Source: an uncultured Prevotellaceae bacterium (GTDB lineage: Bacteria > Bacteroidota > Bacteroidia > Bacteroidales > Bacteroidaceae). From it: DNA of 64,000 nucleotides. The translations under genes and the position numbers were made by a program. This document shows positions 11,316 to 50,067 of the stretch, piece by piece (position 1 is the first letter of the stretch; each line of letters opens with the position of its first letter). The stretch is from NCBI GenBank assembly GCA_902790625.1, contig CADASP010000010.1, forward strand, positions 1 to 64,000. The letters run 5' to 3'. The notes under the pieces are model-generated. The model had not been told where the DNA came from and did not search any database. It saw nothing but the letters and a program-made list of their open reading frames with translations.

Positions 11316-11379
11316 TGAAAAGGGAAGTCCCCCTTTAGTCCAACCCCCAACAACCCACCCCCTACAGACCCACCCCCTG

Positions 11380-11498
11380 CAGACCCACCCCCTGCCCCTC
11401 CCTGTGAGGGAGGGGAGCAGATAGTTTTGCTGCAGAATCATCAAAGGACAAGTCTATATACTCCCCTCCCTCACAGGGAGGGGCAGGGGGTGGGTCTG
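11380..11498. repeat. 38-bp perfect inverted repeat between convergent genes
   Basis: Positions 11380-11417 and 11461-11498 are perfect reverse complements (each contains ACCCCCTGCCCCTCCCTG), separated by 43 bases. Each arm is itself partly palindromic (CCCCTCCC/GGGAGGGG). Two more truncated copies of the ACCCACCCCCT part lie just before at 11352-11379. The right arm forms the last codons of the BASS transporter gene. It could act as a two-way terminator for the convergent genes. Confidence 0.75.
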
Positions 11499-12410
11499 TA
11501 GGGGCAGATAGGCCACGAGTGCCCCAGAGAGGTTGTGCCACACGCTGAAGAGGGCACCGGGGATGGTGGCCAGCGGATAGGCGGCAAAATGGATGGTGGC
11601 CAGACTGGTGGCCAACCCTGAGTTCTGCATGCCCACCTCGATGCTCACGGCCCGCTTCTTCGACTCGTCCATTCGCAACAGGCGACCAATGAGATAGCCC
11701 AAGGCGAGGCCACACACATTGTGGAGCACCACCACCACCACTATCAGCAGTCCACCGGCGAGCAGCTTGTGGGCACTGGCCGAGATGACAATGGCCACGA
11801 TGAACGCGATGGCGAGGGCCGAGGTGGCGGGGAGGTAGTCGGTGACCTTAGCCGTGGCCTTGGGCCACAGCCATTTGGCCACCAGACCAGCGATGATGGG
11901 CAGGATGACCACCCACAGGATGCTGAGGAACATGCTGGCCACGTCGACATGGATGCTCTTGCCTGCCAGAGCCCACGTCAGCAAGGGCGTGAGCAGCGGT
12001 GCCAGCAGGGTCGACACGCCCGTCATGCCCACCGACAGTGCCAGATGGCCCTTGGCCAGATAGGTGATGACGTTGGAGGCCGTACCACCAGGGCAGCAGC
12101 CCACCAGCACCACGCCCAATGCCAGCGCTTCGGGGAGCGCGAAGAGACGCGACAGCAACCATGCCAGCAGCGGCATGACGGTGAACTGCGCCATGCAACC
12201 GATGGCAACATCCTTCGGGTGGCTGAACACAATCTTGAAGTCGTGCAGGTTGAGTGTGAGGCCCATGCCGAACATCACCACTCCCAGCAGGTAGTTGATG
12301 ACCGTGGGGGGCACCTGCTGCAACGCACTGGGAAAGGCCAGCGCCAGCAAGGCGGCGGCCAGCACCAGCAAACCCACGTATTCTGAGATAAAATGACAGA
12401 GTTTCTTCAT
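11454..12410 (-). CDS. Bile acid:sodium symporter (BASS) family transporter
   Basis: A 318-residue inner-membrane protein with about nine to ten hydrophobic segments. Family signatures include FGMGLTLNLHDFK (about 48-60), VGCCPGGTASNVITYLAKG (about 102-120) with the conserved GG..SN sodium-site region, and EVGMQNSGLA near residue 258. BASS members take up organic acids with sodium; bile acids themselves need not be the substrate. The last 17 residues or so (LPLQTHPLPLPVREGSI) are encoded by the inverted repeat and are unlikely to be ancestral. The gene is divergent from the serine hydrolase gene. Confidence 0.9.
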   Translation of the reverse strand: MKKLCHFISEYVGLLVLAAALLALAFPSALQQVPPTVINYLLGVVMFGMGLTLNLHDFKIVFSHPKDVAIGCMAQFTVMPLLAWLLSRLFALPEALALGVVLVGCCPGGTASNVITYLAKGHLALSVGMTGVSTLLAPLLTPLLTWALAGKSIHVDVASMFLSILWVVILPIIAGLVAKWLWPKATAKVTDYLPATSALAIAFIVAIVISASAHKLLAGGLLIVVVVVLHNVCGLALGYLIGRLLRMDESKKRAVSIEVGMQNSGLATSLATIHFAAYPLATIPGALFSVWHNLSGALVAYLPLQTHPLPLPVREGSI

Positions 12411-15761: not shown

Positions 15762-15938
15762 TAGAGAGTTATCGCCTTTGGCGAGTTATGAGTTTAGATT
15801 TTAGAATTTAAAGTTATTCTCGCTTCGCTGCGATTAAGAATTATGAATTGGTGCGCGAAACAATTCTTAACTCTTCATTCTTAATCGCCAAAGGCGATAA
15901 CTCTAAATTCTAAACTCTAAATTCTAAATTCTTAATTC
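15762..15938. repeat. Intergenic repeat block (TTTAGAATTAAGA/ CGCTTCGCTGCGATTA type)
   Basis: The block joins AT-rich ATTCTAAATTCTAAA-type runs with TTATTCTCGCTTCGCTGCGA, and holds an inverted pair TTATCGCCTTTGGCGA (15780s) and TCGCCAAAGGCGATAA (15885-15900). The Ser-Arg-rich CGCTTCGCTGCGATTA string recurs twice at 19632-19692. The block reaches into the msrA stop codon. Confidence 0.65.
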
Positions 15939-19587: not shown

Positions 19588-19720
19588 ATGATTAAGAATT
19601 TAGAATTAAGAATTTAGAATTAAGAGTTATTCTCGCTTCGCTGCGATTAAAAGTTTAGAATTAAGAGTTATTCTCGCTTCGCTGCGATTAAAAGTTTAGA
19701 ATTAATAATTAGTGCGCAAA
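19588..19720. repeat. Intergenic repeat block downstream of GH51
   Basis: AATTTAGAATTAAGA runs are followed by two tandem copies of a roughly 44-bp unit containing TTATTCTCGCTTCGCTGCGA. The same units occur at 15762-15938. Confidence 0.65.
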
Positions 19721-22140: not shown

Positions 22141-22293
22141 TATTGTCTTACGACACTATGTGTTCGCTAAAAAAGTGGTGACATGCCGTTGAGCATGGTT
22201 GATGACGAGCGAAATGGGGTGGATTCAGGAGAGGCGGCGCACGACAAACAGGGAGCGGGAGGCACCGCCGAGGGAAAAGGGGCATGCTTTTTA

Positions 22294-22371
22294 GGTTGGC
22301 AGCGGGCGGGGACATGATTGGCAGCGGCCGCCAGCGAACGCCGCCAATGATGGCAGCGGCCGCTGCCAACC
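22294..22371. repeat. GC-rich palindromic repeat, copy 1
   Basis: A 78-bp string built from GGCAGCGGCCGCTGCC-like palindromes with GGACATGATTGGCAGCGG and CCAATGATGGCAGCGGCC. Its reverse complement matches 44643-44732, where the element is 90 bp. Downstream flanks (AAAAGGCA..) are also partly alike. Confidence 0.75.
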
Positions 22372-22491
22372 GAAATTTATAGGTGATGAATATAGAAAAA
22401 TGGTTTTCCACAGGTTTGCCCCTCTGTCGCCTCCGTTTTGGCGAACTTGGTGCATGAACGGGGGGAGCTAATGATGGGGCATCACTGGTAA

Positions 22492-33909: not shown

Positions 33910-34007
33910 TCCCCATTTATGATTATTTTCGCACAGCAGCACAGCACCGCGCCTGCAGCCTCCTGAAAAAACAACGAATGCAGACGAAGGGCACGAATGA
34001 AAAGTAT

Positions 34008-34191
34008 AAATGGATAAAAGGATAATTGGATAATTTGCGTTTTCAGCAAATATACTGGGGTTTCCAGCGATTTTGCCCTAAAATAGTGGTTTTAAGATGG
34101 ATTGCACACCTTCCGCAGGAGTGTGCAAAAGAGGGGCGAGGAAGCCCCTCCCCCCGCCCCCCCATGGGGGGGAGCATTTAGTTTTGCGGGG
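34008..34191 (+). repeat. Left inverted repeat of the 34.0-36.3 kb cassette
   Basis: About 184 bp, containing GGATAATTGGATAATTTGCG, CAGCAAATATACTGGGG, a GCACAC/GTGTGC hairpin, GAAGCCCCTCCCCCCGCCCC and TAGTTTTGCGGGG. Its reverse complement matches 36076-36258 at roughly 85-90 percent by eye. Confidence 0.8.
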
Positions 34192-34284
34192 CCAAAATAT
34201 CGCCGTGAGCTTCACAGCCCACGGCGACATCAACCTAAACTAACTAACATGAAAACACACACAGAAGAGATTTCTTCAATTACT

Positions 34285-34395
34285 TTAGCCGAGCAACCCG
34301 ATGCAGGAGCTGACGCCGAGCGAGGTAGCAATGGCCGAGACGATGGCGGCTATCAGCCTGATCCAAAAGTCCCATTTCTTACCTGGAGCACTCAT
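34285..34395 (-). CDS. Smalltalk family small membrane protein
   Basis: A 36-residue protein, MSAPGKKWDFWIRLIAAIVS then AIATSLGVSSCIGLLG: a short basic and aromatic start and one transmembrane helix with the small-residue AIAxxLGVSSC pattern of the Bacteroidota 'smalltalk' proteins. These tiny genes usually follow an HU-family gene, as here (HU ends 133 bases upstream). The function is unknown; an amidase gene that often accompanies the pair elsewhere is missing. Confidence 0.75.
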   Translation of the reverse strand: MSAPGKKWDFWIRLIAAIVSAIATSLGVSSCIGLLG

Positions 34396-34523
34396 AAGTT
34401 AGGAGTTACGAGTTACGAGTTACGAGTTACGAGTTAGGAGTTACGAGTTAGGAGTTAGGAGTTACGAGCTACGAGTTGTTTCGTGCGAGTACAACTCCTC
34501 ACTCCTCACTCCTCACTCCTCAC
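34396..34523. repeat. Heptanucleotide tandem-repeat tract
   Basis: About a dozen units of AGTTACG/AGTTAGG are followed by four units of ACTCCTC in the opposite sense, so the tract can fold back on itself. It lies between the HU and smalltalk genes. Related 7-bp tracts lie at 40527-40586 and inside the phosphatase gene at 49489 and 49692. Confidence 0.85.
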
Positions 34524-34527
34524 TCTT

Positions 34528-34992
34528 TTAGGGTTCCTGAGTCTCCAGATACTTGCCCTTCTCGTTCGACAGGGTGGCTTCGCCATTCTTCAGCTTCTGG
34601 GCCAGCGAGGTGTACATCAGCGAGCTGGAAGCAGTCAACTGCTTGGGCACGCAGTCGCCAGTGGCCTGGCAGAGCAGCTTGGTCTTCTTGATGTTCTGCT
34701 GCAGGTCGAACTTCTCCACGCTCACGGCGGGAGTGGAAATCACGCTGGCCTTGAAGATGGCCAGGTTGTCAATCTTCACGGGCTGTCCACCCAGGGCCAG
34801 CTCGCGGATGCAGCGCGAAGCAGCGATCAGCACACCATAGATGGTGTCGACGGTGAAGGGGCTACCATGGGCGTGGATGTGCTGCGAAAGCTCAGCGATG
34901 CCCACAGGCTCCAAGTTGTTGACGCGACCATAGACCTTGCCATACTGGCGGCTCTCCTGGTTCTTGTTCTTGTAGAGGTCAATTCTTAACAT
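34528..34992 (-). CDS. HU-family (HU-HIG) DNA-binding protein
   Basis: A 154-residue basic protein of the HU-like type common in Bacteroidota, longer than classic HU. The fold pattern is RIDLYKNKNQESRQYGKVYG (start), LAELSQHIHAHG-like GIAELSQHIHAHGSPFTVDT, IYGVLIAASRCIRELALGG and VKIDNLAIFKASV. The tail from about residue 100 is Lys-rich and lacks known motifs. The start at MLRIDLYK is favoured, as the upstream ATG overlaps the promoter. It may organise nucleoid DNA or bind special sites; here it sits within the inverted-repeat cassette. Confidence 0.9.
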   Translation of the reverse strand: MLRIDLYKNKNQESRQYGKVYGRVNNLEPVGIAELSQHIHAHGSPFTVDTIYGVLIAASRCIRELALGGQPVKIDNLAIFKASVISTPAVSVEKFDLQQNIKKTKLLCQATGDCVPKQLTASSSLMYTSLAQKLKNGEATLSNEKGKYLETQEP

Positions 34993-35034
34993 GGCTTTGA
35001 AAGGAATTAGTGAAACATTAAGTGAACTGTAGTG

Positions 35035-35042
35035 CAAAGTTA
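35035..35042 (-). promoter_or_regulatory. -7 promoter element for the HU gene
   Basis: Minus-strand TAACTTTG matches TAnnTTTG, 43 bases before the ATG at 34992. Confidence 0.55.
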
Positions 35043-35072
35043 CAAAAAACCCTTGCCGCGAGCAAGGGTTTT
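35043..35072 (-). terminator. Terminator after the 35090 remnant gene
   Basis: AAAACCCTTGC and GCAAGGGTTTT form an 11-bp stem with a 5-base loop; on the minus strand it is followed by a T run. It would end transcription of the remnant at 35090 before the HU promoter. Confidence 0.7.
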
Positions 35073-35089
35073 CCCACTTATCTTTCCGC

Positions 35090-35206
35090 CTAATAATCCG
35101 TACGCTTGTAAGTCATTTTCGTTGAGGGGTTTACATAGAGTGCAAATCCTATCACCATGTCTTCGTAGCGCAGATTCTTCAGCGTGCCGTTCTCCACCTT
35201 CGCCAT
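35090..35206 (-). pseudogene. C-terminal remnant of unknown protein
   Basis: MAKVENGTLKNLRYEDMVIG then FALYVNPSTKMTYKRTDY reads like a real beta-rich C-terminus and is followed by a proper terminator. The open frame extends to 35287 without convincing sequence, and no upstream body is present. The family is not recognised. Confidence 0.4.
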
Positions 35207-35440
35207 CGCCCAGCCCAGCCGCCGCCATGAGTATAAGCAGACAACCATCGCATGCGCGCCACCAAAGGATGCCTCGGCATCCATCATTCAGTCCACTCCG
35301 AAAACCAAGCATCACTCGCGAAAGACGGCGCATTGTTTGGGGGGTGTTTTTTTTTAGTGGAGAAGGGCGGGGGGCGGAGTGCACTCATCATTCACTGCGT
35401 GGACTTGAATGCCGTATTATGGCAGATAATCATAAAGTTA

Positions 35441-35515
35441 TTCGAGGTACGGTTGAAAGGACACTGAAAGCGTCTGGAATCTTCAAAAAAACGCTACCGT
35501 CTTTTCAACCGGACG
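35441..35515. repeat. Degenerate copy of the 19730 hairpin element
   Basis: TTCGAGGTACGGTTGAAA and CGTCTTTTCAACCG repeat the arms seen at 19726-19770, but the inner part is longer and broken up. Further on, 35516-35640 holds nothing assignable. Confidence 0.5.
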
Positions 35516-35710
35516 AAGTTATTTCTCGTCGGGAAATGCTCGTTCCACGTCGGGGGGGGGTATCATTCCACGTCGGGGAATAAACTTTTGCTACCGCTTT
35601 TTCTAACTTCAAAGTAATAATTTGAGATGATGATGAACGCAGAAGCCCCGGAGGGGCGACGGAATAAAGGTAGGGGGCATCGCCTCTATACCCCCATAAG
35701 AGGGTAGAAC

Positions 35711-35930
35711 AATCCGTCGCCCCCTCTGGGGGCTTTCATTCCGTCTGCCTTCACAGGGGCGATGCCCCTGCCTGTAATCCGTCGCCCCCTCCGGGGGCTT
35801 TCATTCCGTCTGCCTTCACGGGGGCGGTGCCCCTGCTTAGTCGATTGGTGCTCACCATCGTCTTCCGTCGCCCCCTCCGGGGGGGGGGCTTCATTCCGTC
35901 TGCCTTCACGGGGTATTCCCCTTAGCATGT
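35711..35930. repeat. Three tandem GC-rich repeat units
   Basis: Units begin at 35711, 35776 and 35862, each with CCGTCGCCCCCT, GGGGGCTTTCATTCCGTCTG and CCTTCACGGGG-like ends; the second carries an extra 21 bp or so. The GCCCCGGAGGGGCGACGG at 35646-35663 is an inverted relative. An ORF across it on the minus strand is a repeat artefact. Confidence 0.75.
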
Positions 35931-36075
35931 CGGCTGCAAAAAATACGCATTTCTGCTGACATTGGTGCAGGAATCTTGCGTTAGGAGTTCTTGCCTTGCA
36001 AGCGACCAAAGGTCGAGCGAGGAGTGAAGCCCCTCCCCCCGCCCCCCCCTGGGGGGGAGCATATAGACCCAATGC

Positions 36076-36258
36076 CCCCGCAAAACTATCTGCCCCCCCC
36101 ATGGGGGGGCGGGGGGAGGGGCTTCCTCCCGCTTTTTTGCACACTCTCCCTGGGGGGTGTGCAATCAATCTTAAAAACACTATTTGGGGGCAAAATCGCT
36201 GAAAAACCCAGTATATTTGCTGGAAACGCAAATTATCCAATTATCCATTTATCCATTT
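36076..36258 (-). repeat. Right inverted repeat of the 34.0-36.3 kb cassette
   Basis: Reverse complement of 34008-34191 with small differences. A further short arm, GAAGCCCCTCCCCCCGCCCC at 36026-36048, forms a 23-bp inner inverted repeat with 36103-36125. Beyond the element, GGATAAATGGATAAATGGAT recurs at 36364-36383. Confidence 0.8.
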
Positions 36259-36386
36259 ATCCATTTACCACCTCCATATTTCGCATTTTCCCTCGTCGAT
36301 ATATTGAAAAATGTTTTAATTATTATATACTATAATAATTAACGCCTATAGGATATAGGCTAATGGATAAATGGATAAATGGATAA

Positions 36387-36596
36387 TTGAATAATTGCTT
36401 GCAGTGCGGCAGCGCCAATATCCGGATATGGGACAAGCGCACCTGCCCCAAGTGTCAGGGAGAGATGGAAGACACAGGCGAACCTTCGCCTCACACCTCG
36501 GCTATCACTTCGATTTCCACCAGCGCCCCCTTGGGCAAGGTCTTCACCGCCACGGCCGAACGGGCGGGGTATGGCTCTTGGAAGAACTCTGCGTAG
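36387..36596 (+). pseudogene. Zinc-ribbon-like fragment overlapping ridA
   Basis: From a TTG, the frame reads CLQCGSANIRIWDKRTCPKC then QGEMEDTGE, a believable four-cysteine zinc ribbon of about 30 residues. After about 36480 it runs antisense through ridA and loses sense. It is preceded directly by the GGATAAAT repeat. It is probably a stranded fragment, not a working gene. Confidence 0.3.
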
Positions 36597-40526: not shown

Positions 40527-40586
40527 TGAGTGAAGAGTTAGGAGTGAGGAGTTAGGAGTTAGGAGTTAGGAGTGAAGAGTGAAGAA
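40527..40586. repeat. Heptanucleotide repeat tract
   Basis: Units of AGTTAGG, AGTGAGG and AGTGAAG in tandem, related to the tract at 34396. It cuts off the signal-peptide remnant at 40566-40652. Confidence 0.8.
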
Positions 40587-44172: not shown

Positions 44173-44642
44173 AATCGTATGTTTTAAGTATATAATCGTC
44201 ATTAAATATCCGCAGGACGGTTTTCACACACTTATTTATGATAGGAAATGGTTTCCGCTTGCAAATTTACGAATAAAAACGCGAACCATTATTGTCTATT
44301 TTTAACAAAATGAAGGTGCCCACTGTCAATTTTAGACAAAAATGCAGAAATTTTGGGGATTCAGAGGCACGAGGGAACGCCGATGCTACATACGGCAAAG
44401 AAAATGTTACATGAAAGAAAGTAGAAACTCGTCATTTGTCCCAAGCCCACTGAGGGGACAGCCCCTCAGGTCTCTACGCAGTTGCAGGAGTAACTTCTTC
44501 CATTTGCTGACAAACCTTTTCACTGGAAGAAGCCACAATTCTCGTTGGGAGCATTCCAATTGAAAATTTGGTGTTCTTGCGTCACTTTGGTGGCAAGCGA
44601 TGTCGCGCCGACAACTTAAACAATGTGGACAAGGTGAAAAAC

Positions 44643-44732
44643 GGTTGGCAGCGGCCGCTGCCATCATTGTTCCCGCCCGCTGCCATCATTGGCAGCGGCC
44701 GCTGCCAATCATGTCCCCGTCCGCTGCCAACC
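44643..44732. repeat. GC-rich palindromic repeat, copy 2
   Basis: Two GGCAGCGGCCGCTGCC palindromes plus CCCGCCCGCTGCC and CATGTCCCCGTCCGCTGCC. It is the inverted counterpart of 22294-22371. It lies in the gap before the capsule operon. Other parts of 44173-45110 hold small hairpins (CTGAGGGG/CCCCTCAG near 44449-44468, GGATCAT/ATGATCC at 44965-44987) but no gene that I can support. Confidence 0.75.
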
Positions 44733-45113
44733 CAAAAGGCACGGTGTTTTTCCCCGCTTCCCCATCGCCTGTTCCCAATTTGCGGTGGACTAAATCCGCT
44801 GAGGCGACACTCGAAAAACATTGCGAGGAGGGAGCAATTGCCTTACAGTGGCGGAGAAGAGCGGCGGGGGCACTTTTGATAGGATAAGTGCATAAAGGGT
44901 AGTCCACTTGCAGGGGTAGGGGGCTGGCGCGGTATCGCAGTAGCAAATGCTTCACTTTGAGCCTGGATCATATAGCAAAAATGATCCCCCTCGAAAAAGG
45001 CACAAATGAGTTTACTTGGGCGTGATGTCAAAAGTGTTTACAACTCTCGTCAATAAAATGATGCCGCAGGTGTTTTTTTCGGAGGAAACGCCTGTTTTGT
45101 GCGTTTTTTATTG

Positions 45114-49249: not shown

Positions 49250-50067
<818 letters not shown>

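Follow-up and report, generated by a model that had tools for sequence, protein, structure and literature searches.

Inverted copies of a rare composite repeat around an HU-HIG and smalltalk operon in a Prevotellaceae chromosome

Among the Bacteroidales, Porphyromonas gingivalis has composite repeats that are intergenic, non-coding and species-limited, the BrickBuilt and PgRS/464 MITEs, in which tandem short units lie between leader and tail parts; BrickBuilt itself is present in 19 copies, with 12-nt IS5-type terminal inverted repeats and, in some cases, target-site duplications (PMC4596501). REP/BIME palindromes that go with RAYT (Y1_Tnp) transposases represent another described system (PMC3733652), and among the genes of Bacteroidota, HU-HIG and smalltalk (NF033879) are known to occur as pairs. 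The 64,000-nt stretch of DNA analysed here (the window) contains a segment of 2.2 kb that can be compared with each of these. Its gene content and order are those of an HU-HIG/smalltalk pair, while the two long inverted repeats around it, the arms, are not part of such pairs, and the genome's other pair (C31) has none. The arms are like the P. gingivalis repeats in being intergenic, non-coding and species-limited composites with tandem short units between other parts but, unlike BrickBuilt, they exist in two full copies only, are built from different units, and no ends of the BrickBuilt kind were found on them. The palindromic repeats at 35646-35926 inside the segment resemble the flanks of the genome's own RAYT gene, whereas the arms occur at neither of its RAYT genes. 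We lean toward the view that HU-HIG and smalltalk form an ordinary chromosomal operon within an intergenic repeat cluster, and that the arms are inverted copies of a low-copy composite repeat, probably passive.

The initial annotation had described near-identical inverted repeats bounding the segment, with tandem repeats, an HU-family gene and a smalltalk gene between them and no transposase. This part of the description stands. Local alignment of the left arm with the reverse complement of the right gave 88.4% identity over 198 columns (E 3e-64), with edges slightly shifted from those first given, a few short indels, 35 bp as the longest exact run and an overall divergence of 12%. When the whole window was compared with itself, the arm pair was the top inverted match at the same E value, the runner-up with separate arms being 113 bp at 77%. 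The tandem arrays were recovered, and neither a transposase nor a recombinase is found among the open reading frames within or adjoining the segment. The features are as follows.

34000-34194, plus strand: left arm, made of an 8-mer (GGATAAAT-type) array, the 26-bp core, a TGCACAC hairpin and half of a GC-rich palindrome
34053-34078, plus strand: left copy of the 26-bp core, TACTGGGGTTTCCAGCGATTTTGCCC
34141-34189, plus strand: GC-rich palindromic element, truncated to a half copy, in the left arm
34202-34218, minus strand: hairpin with a T-rich tail 3' of smalltalk, the likely operon terminator (predicted)
34285-34395, minus strand: smalltalk gene, 36 aa (NF033879 above cut-off, also Pfam DUF6486)
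34396-34527, minus strand: inverted 7-mer arrays filling the HU-smalltalk gap, which is the smalltalk leader (predicted hairpin)
34528-34989, minus strand: HU-HIG family gene, 153 aa (Pfam PF18291, E 1e-8)
35646-35926, no strand assigned: palindromic repeat (CCCCGGAGGGGCGACGGAAT..GGGGCATCGCCCC) in several copies
36026-36125, no strand assigned: GC-rich palindromic element in its complete form, folding as RNA into a single hairpin of -92 kcal/mol (predicted fold)
36073-36266, minus strand: right arm, 88% identical to the left arm and inverted relative to it
36188-36213, minus strand: right copy of the 26-bp core, with two base differences from the left one
36231-36397, no strand assigned: AT-rich palindrome between two 8-mer arrays in inverted orientation (36231-36265 and 36362-36396)
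36395-36482, plus strand: 3'-end remnant of a gene for a zinc-ribbon protein, immediately beyond the right arm and just before the RidA stop codon

The arms are mosaics of repeat parts. From the outside inward, each consists of the 8-mer array (36231-36265 being the outer end of the right arm), the core-bearing stretch, the TGCACAC/GTGTGCA hairpin and the GC-rich part. The last of these is half of a palindromic intergenic element of ~100 bp that has matches at ~15 other loci of the genome, frequently as inverted doublets, and occurs in ~19 further genomes of the genus; it is complete on the right side of our segment and present as the half copy only in the left arm. That the arms might prove to be a common genome-wide repeat had been named at the outset as grounds for giving up the cassette reading, and this turns out to be the case for the GC-rich third and not for the remaining ~130 bp.

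This remaining part, comprising the 8-mer array, core and hairpin, is present in two full copies in the 4.14-Mb genome, both of them here, in addition to a hairpin fragment at C10:68750. Random placement of two copies around the 2.2-kb segment would have a probability of ~0.001. Outside the window's own genome the full arm was not found, either in 119 relatives or in a set of 398 genomes of the genus that includes the window's own. The 26-bp core reached slightly farther: with up to three mismatches allowed it was detected in 3 of 397 other genomes of the genus, and is thus common to four species including that of the window, while a reversed core pattern used as control gave no matches. The three other species have AGGTATACCT 15-18 bp after the core; in the window it is absent from this position. 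Core matches in two further genomes (G132 and G285) sit in apparent susD-like coding sequence and were dismissed as chance matches. In Prevotella sp. UBA3837 the core lies inside a 472-bp composite repeat, present in two copies 96% identical to each other, which holds an array, an AT palindrome, the inverted array (the arrays being inverted 9-mers) and the core. These two copies indicate that the core does spread inside repeats. They are located at 2230-2698 (L140) and 353-823 (L168), with no clear terminal repeats or target duplications. The arrangement of an AT palindrome between an array and an inverted array recurs in our segment, on the outer flank of the right arm (36231-36397). Viral contigs contained no match to the core pattern, a search of the segment against Rfam returned low-scoring matches to unrelated hairpin families only, all under gathering scores, and in the literature no description of such repeats was found for Prevotella.

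The genes between the arms appear unexceptional. The genome has four further HU-HIG genes of this clade, 63-69% identical and in unrelated surroundings; smalltalk follows one of the four (C31), and none of them, the C31 pair included, has arms, which speaks against a mobile or invertible cassette. A promoter of its own had been ascribed to HU. A sigma-70-type scan showed none, but by eye a candidate of the Bacteroidetes type, TTG-N20-TAACTTTG, can be read just upstream of the gene at about 35036-35070. Changes in the number of 7-mer units before smalltalk could alter its translation. As for the terminated gene remnant reported between the arms, an open reading frame is indeed present at 35090-35287, but has no family match; the zinc-ribbon tail at 36395-36482 is the clearer gene remnant, with longer versions in other species (L137 in G018 and L109 in G034), the latter on the same contig as RidA and ~4 kb away from it.

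How might such an arm pair have arisen? Two copies within 2.2 kb are unlikely by random insertion, which makes local inverted duplication the simplest account. Long palindromes favour local inverted duplication, and we infer that the arm composite, a short tandem array, the 26-bp core, a small hairpin and a piece of the genome-wide GC-rich palindrome, was most likely copied in this way, for example by replication template switching at long palindromes. A close alternative would be that one MITE-like repeat inserted twice, at linked sites. The effect of the arms on the genes would probably be passive only: they would form strong hairpins or halt transcription at the operon ends. The interior of the segment also has the character of a cluster of several repeat families rather than of a clean cassette, since it contains RAYT-type palindromes and inverted 7-mer arrays. 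The former, at 35646-35926, are like those flanking the RAYT gene at C1:109186, so that the RAYT-associated REP palindromes, which flank a RAYT gene of the same genome, have a counterpart here; no arm part (array, core or GC palindrome) was found at either RAYT gene.

Let us consider instead that two MITE-like copies bound the HU-smalltalk operon and that a transposase acting in trans moved the whole. We regard this as unlikely, although a number of observations speak for it. The full arm is known only as this pair, in the genome and in the genus search, and the low chance of the only two full copies flanking one operon makes the arrival of a unit with both arms possible. In the nearest relative examined (G138), DNA around the M28 peptidase gene is 93-96% identical to the window; this homology ends at 34003, with other genes beyond, and because this is the outer edge of the left arm, a real junction lies there. 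Such a stop would be expected of an inserted unit as well. Neither HU beside M28 nor a window-like M28-RidA junction occurs in any of the relatives' M28 loci fetched, where the neighbours differ, and eleven relatives carrying the M28 locus have no HU match at E 1e-20. Against it, no empty site was found at the relatives' M28 loci examined and no target-site duplication just outside the arms: there is no shared word of at least 5 at 34000/36266; random control pairs mostly share 5-6 by chance. The genome has no second such block, its other HU genes stand without arms, the segment matched no plasmid or phage, and the arms have drifted 12% apart, with indels. The arm ends, the 8-mer array and the GC palindrome, were not recognised as IS ends, a comparison made without a catalogue of the IS of this genome. 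The multiple dispersed copies typical of MITEs are seen for the GC part alone, and of a composite transposon two copies and a cargo are present, with no transposase between the arms. Of the unusual repeat-bounded unit in the initial annotation, the improbable pairing and a left edge that coincides with the homology stop thus hold up, but a mobile or invertible cassette is not supported.

A related scenario, to which we would give little weight, supposes an undescribed, rare composite non-coding family of Prevotella, mobile by some enzyme, a pair of whose copies captured the HU-smalltalk operon as cargo. Its layout, put forward just as tentatively, would be a short tandem array, an AT palindrome, an inverted array, the 26-bp core, often AGGTATACCT, and GC-rich hairpins.

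It is also doubtful that the arms are selected insulators whose strong hairpins keep transcription from entering or leaving the HU operon. The predicted fold of the GC element is strong, its copies lie at or just past gene ends at several other loci, and one is directly at the 3' end of another HU gene (C18); on the other hand, smalltalk is already followed by the terminator-like hairpin at 34202-34218, the other HU genes do without arms, and some copies of the element appear inside open frames. Least credible is an invertible switch in which arm-arm recombination flips the operon and changes its expression: the arms, inverted, 194 bp long and identical over a run of 35 bp, could support homologous recombination, but active switches normally keep near-identical repeats, and frequent use is unlikely with arms diverged to 88% identity with indels and no recombinase near, while the likely promoter of HU, being internal to the segment, would be turned along with it, and inversion would thus not switch HU off.

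Returning to the repeat cluster around an ordinary operon, we propose with moderate confidence that the arms fit among known composite intergenic repeats of the MITE-like or REP-like sort; as repeats they do exist, but on present evidence they are not a new mobile element. Intergenic gaps of repeat-rich Prevotella chromosomes gather palindromes and arrays of several families, and for this reason the finding of a gene between long inverted repeats argues only weakly there for a mobile cassette. The rare 26-bp core, found in three other sampled species, one of them with the duplicated 472-bp repeat, offers a small lead to an undescribed Bacteroidales repeat family.

Some further repeats were noted in passing. 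The two RAYT-like Y1_Tnp genes of the genome (L138 at C1:109186 and L139 at C9:147429) have inverted palindromic flanks, of a different family for each, and L139 reads through one TAG. Other large palindromes of the window are at 11374-11504, 15790 and 22272, and an inverted pair is formed by 22272-22372 and 44642-44754. Many short 7-mer arrays, which resemble the short tandem repeats known from cyanobacteria, lie at 15902-15938, 19591-19705, 34397-34525, 40528-40582, 49487-49545 and 49692-49717, several of them as inverted doublets, and the GAGTTAG-type array at 40528 has dozens of matching places in two relatives.
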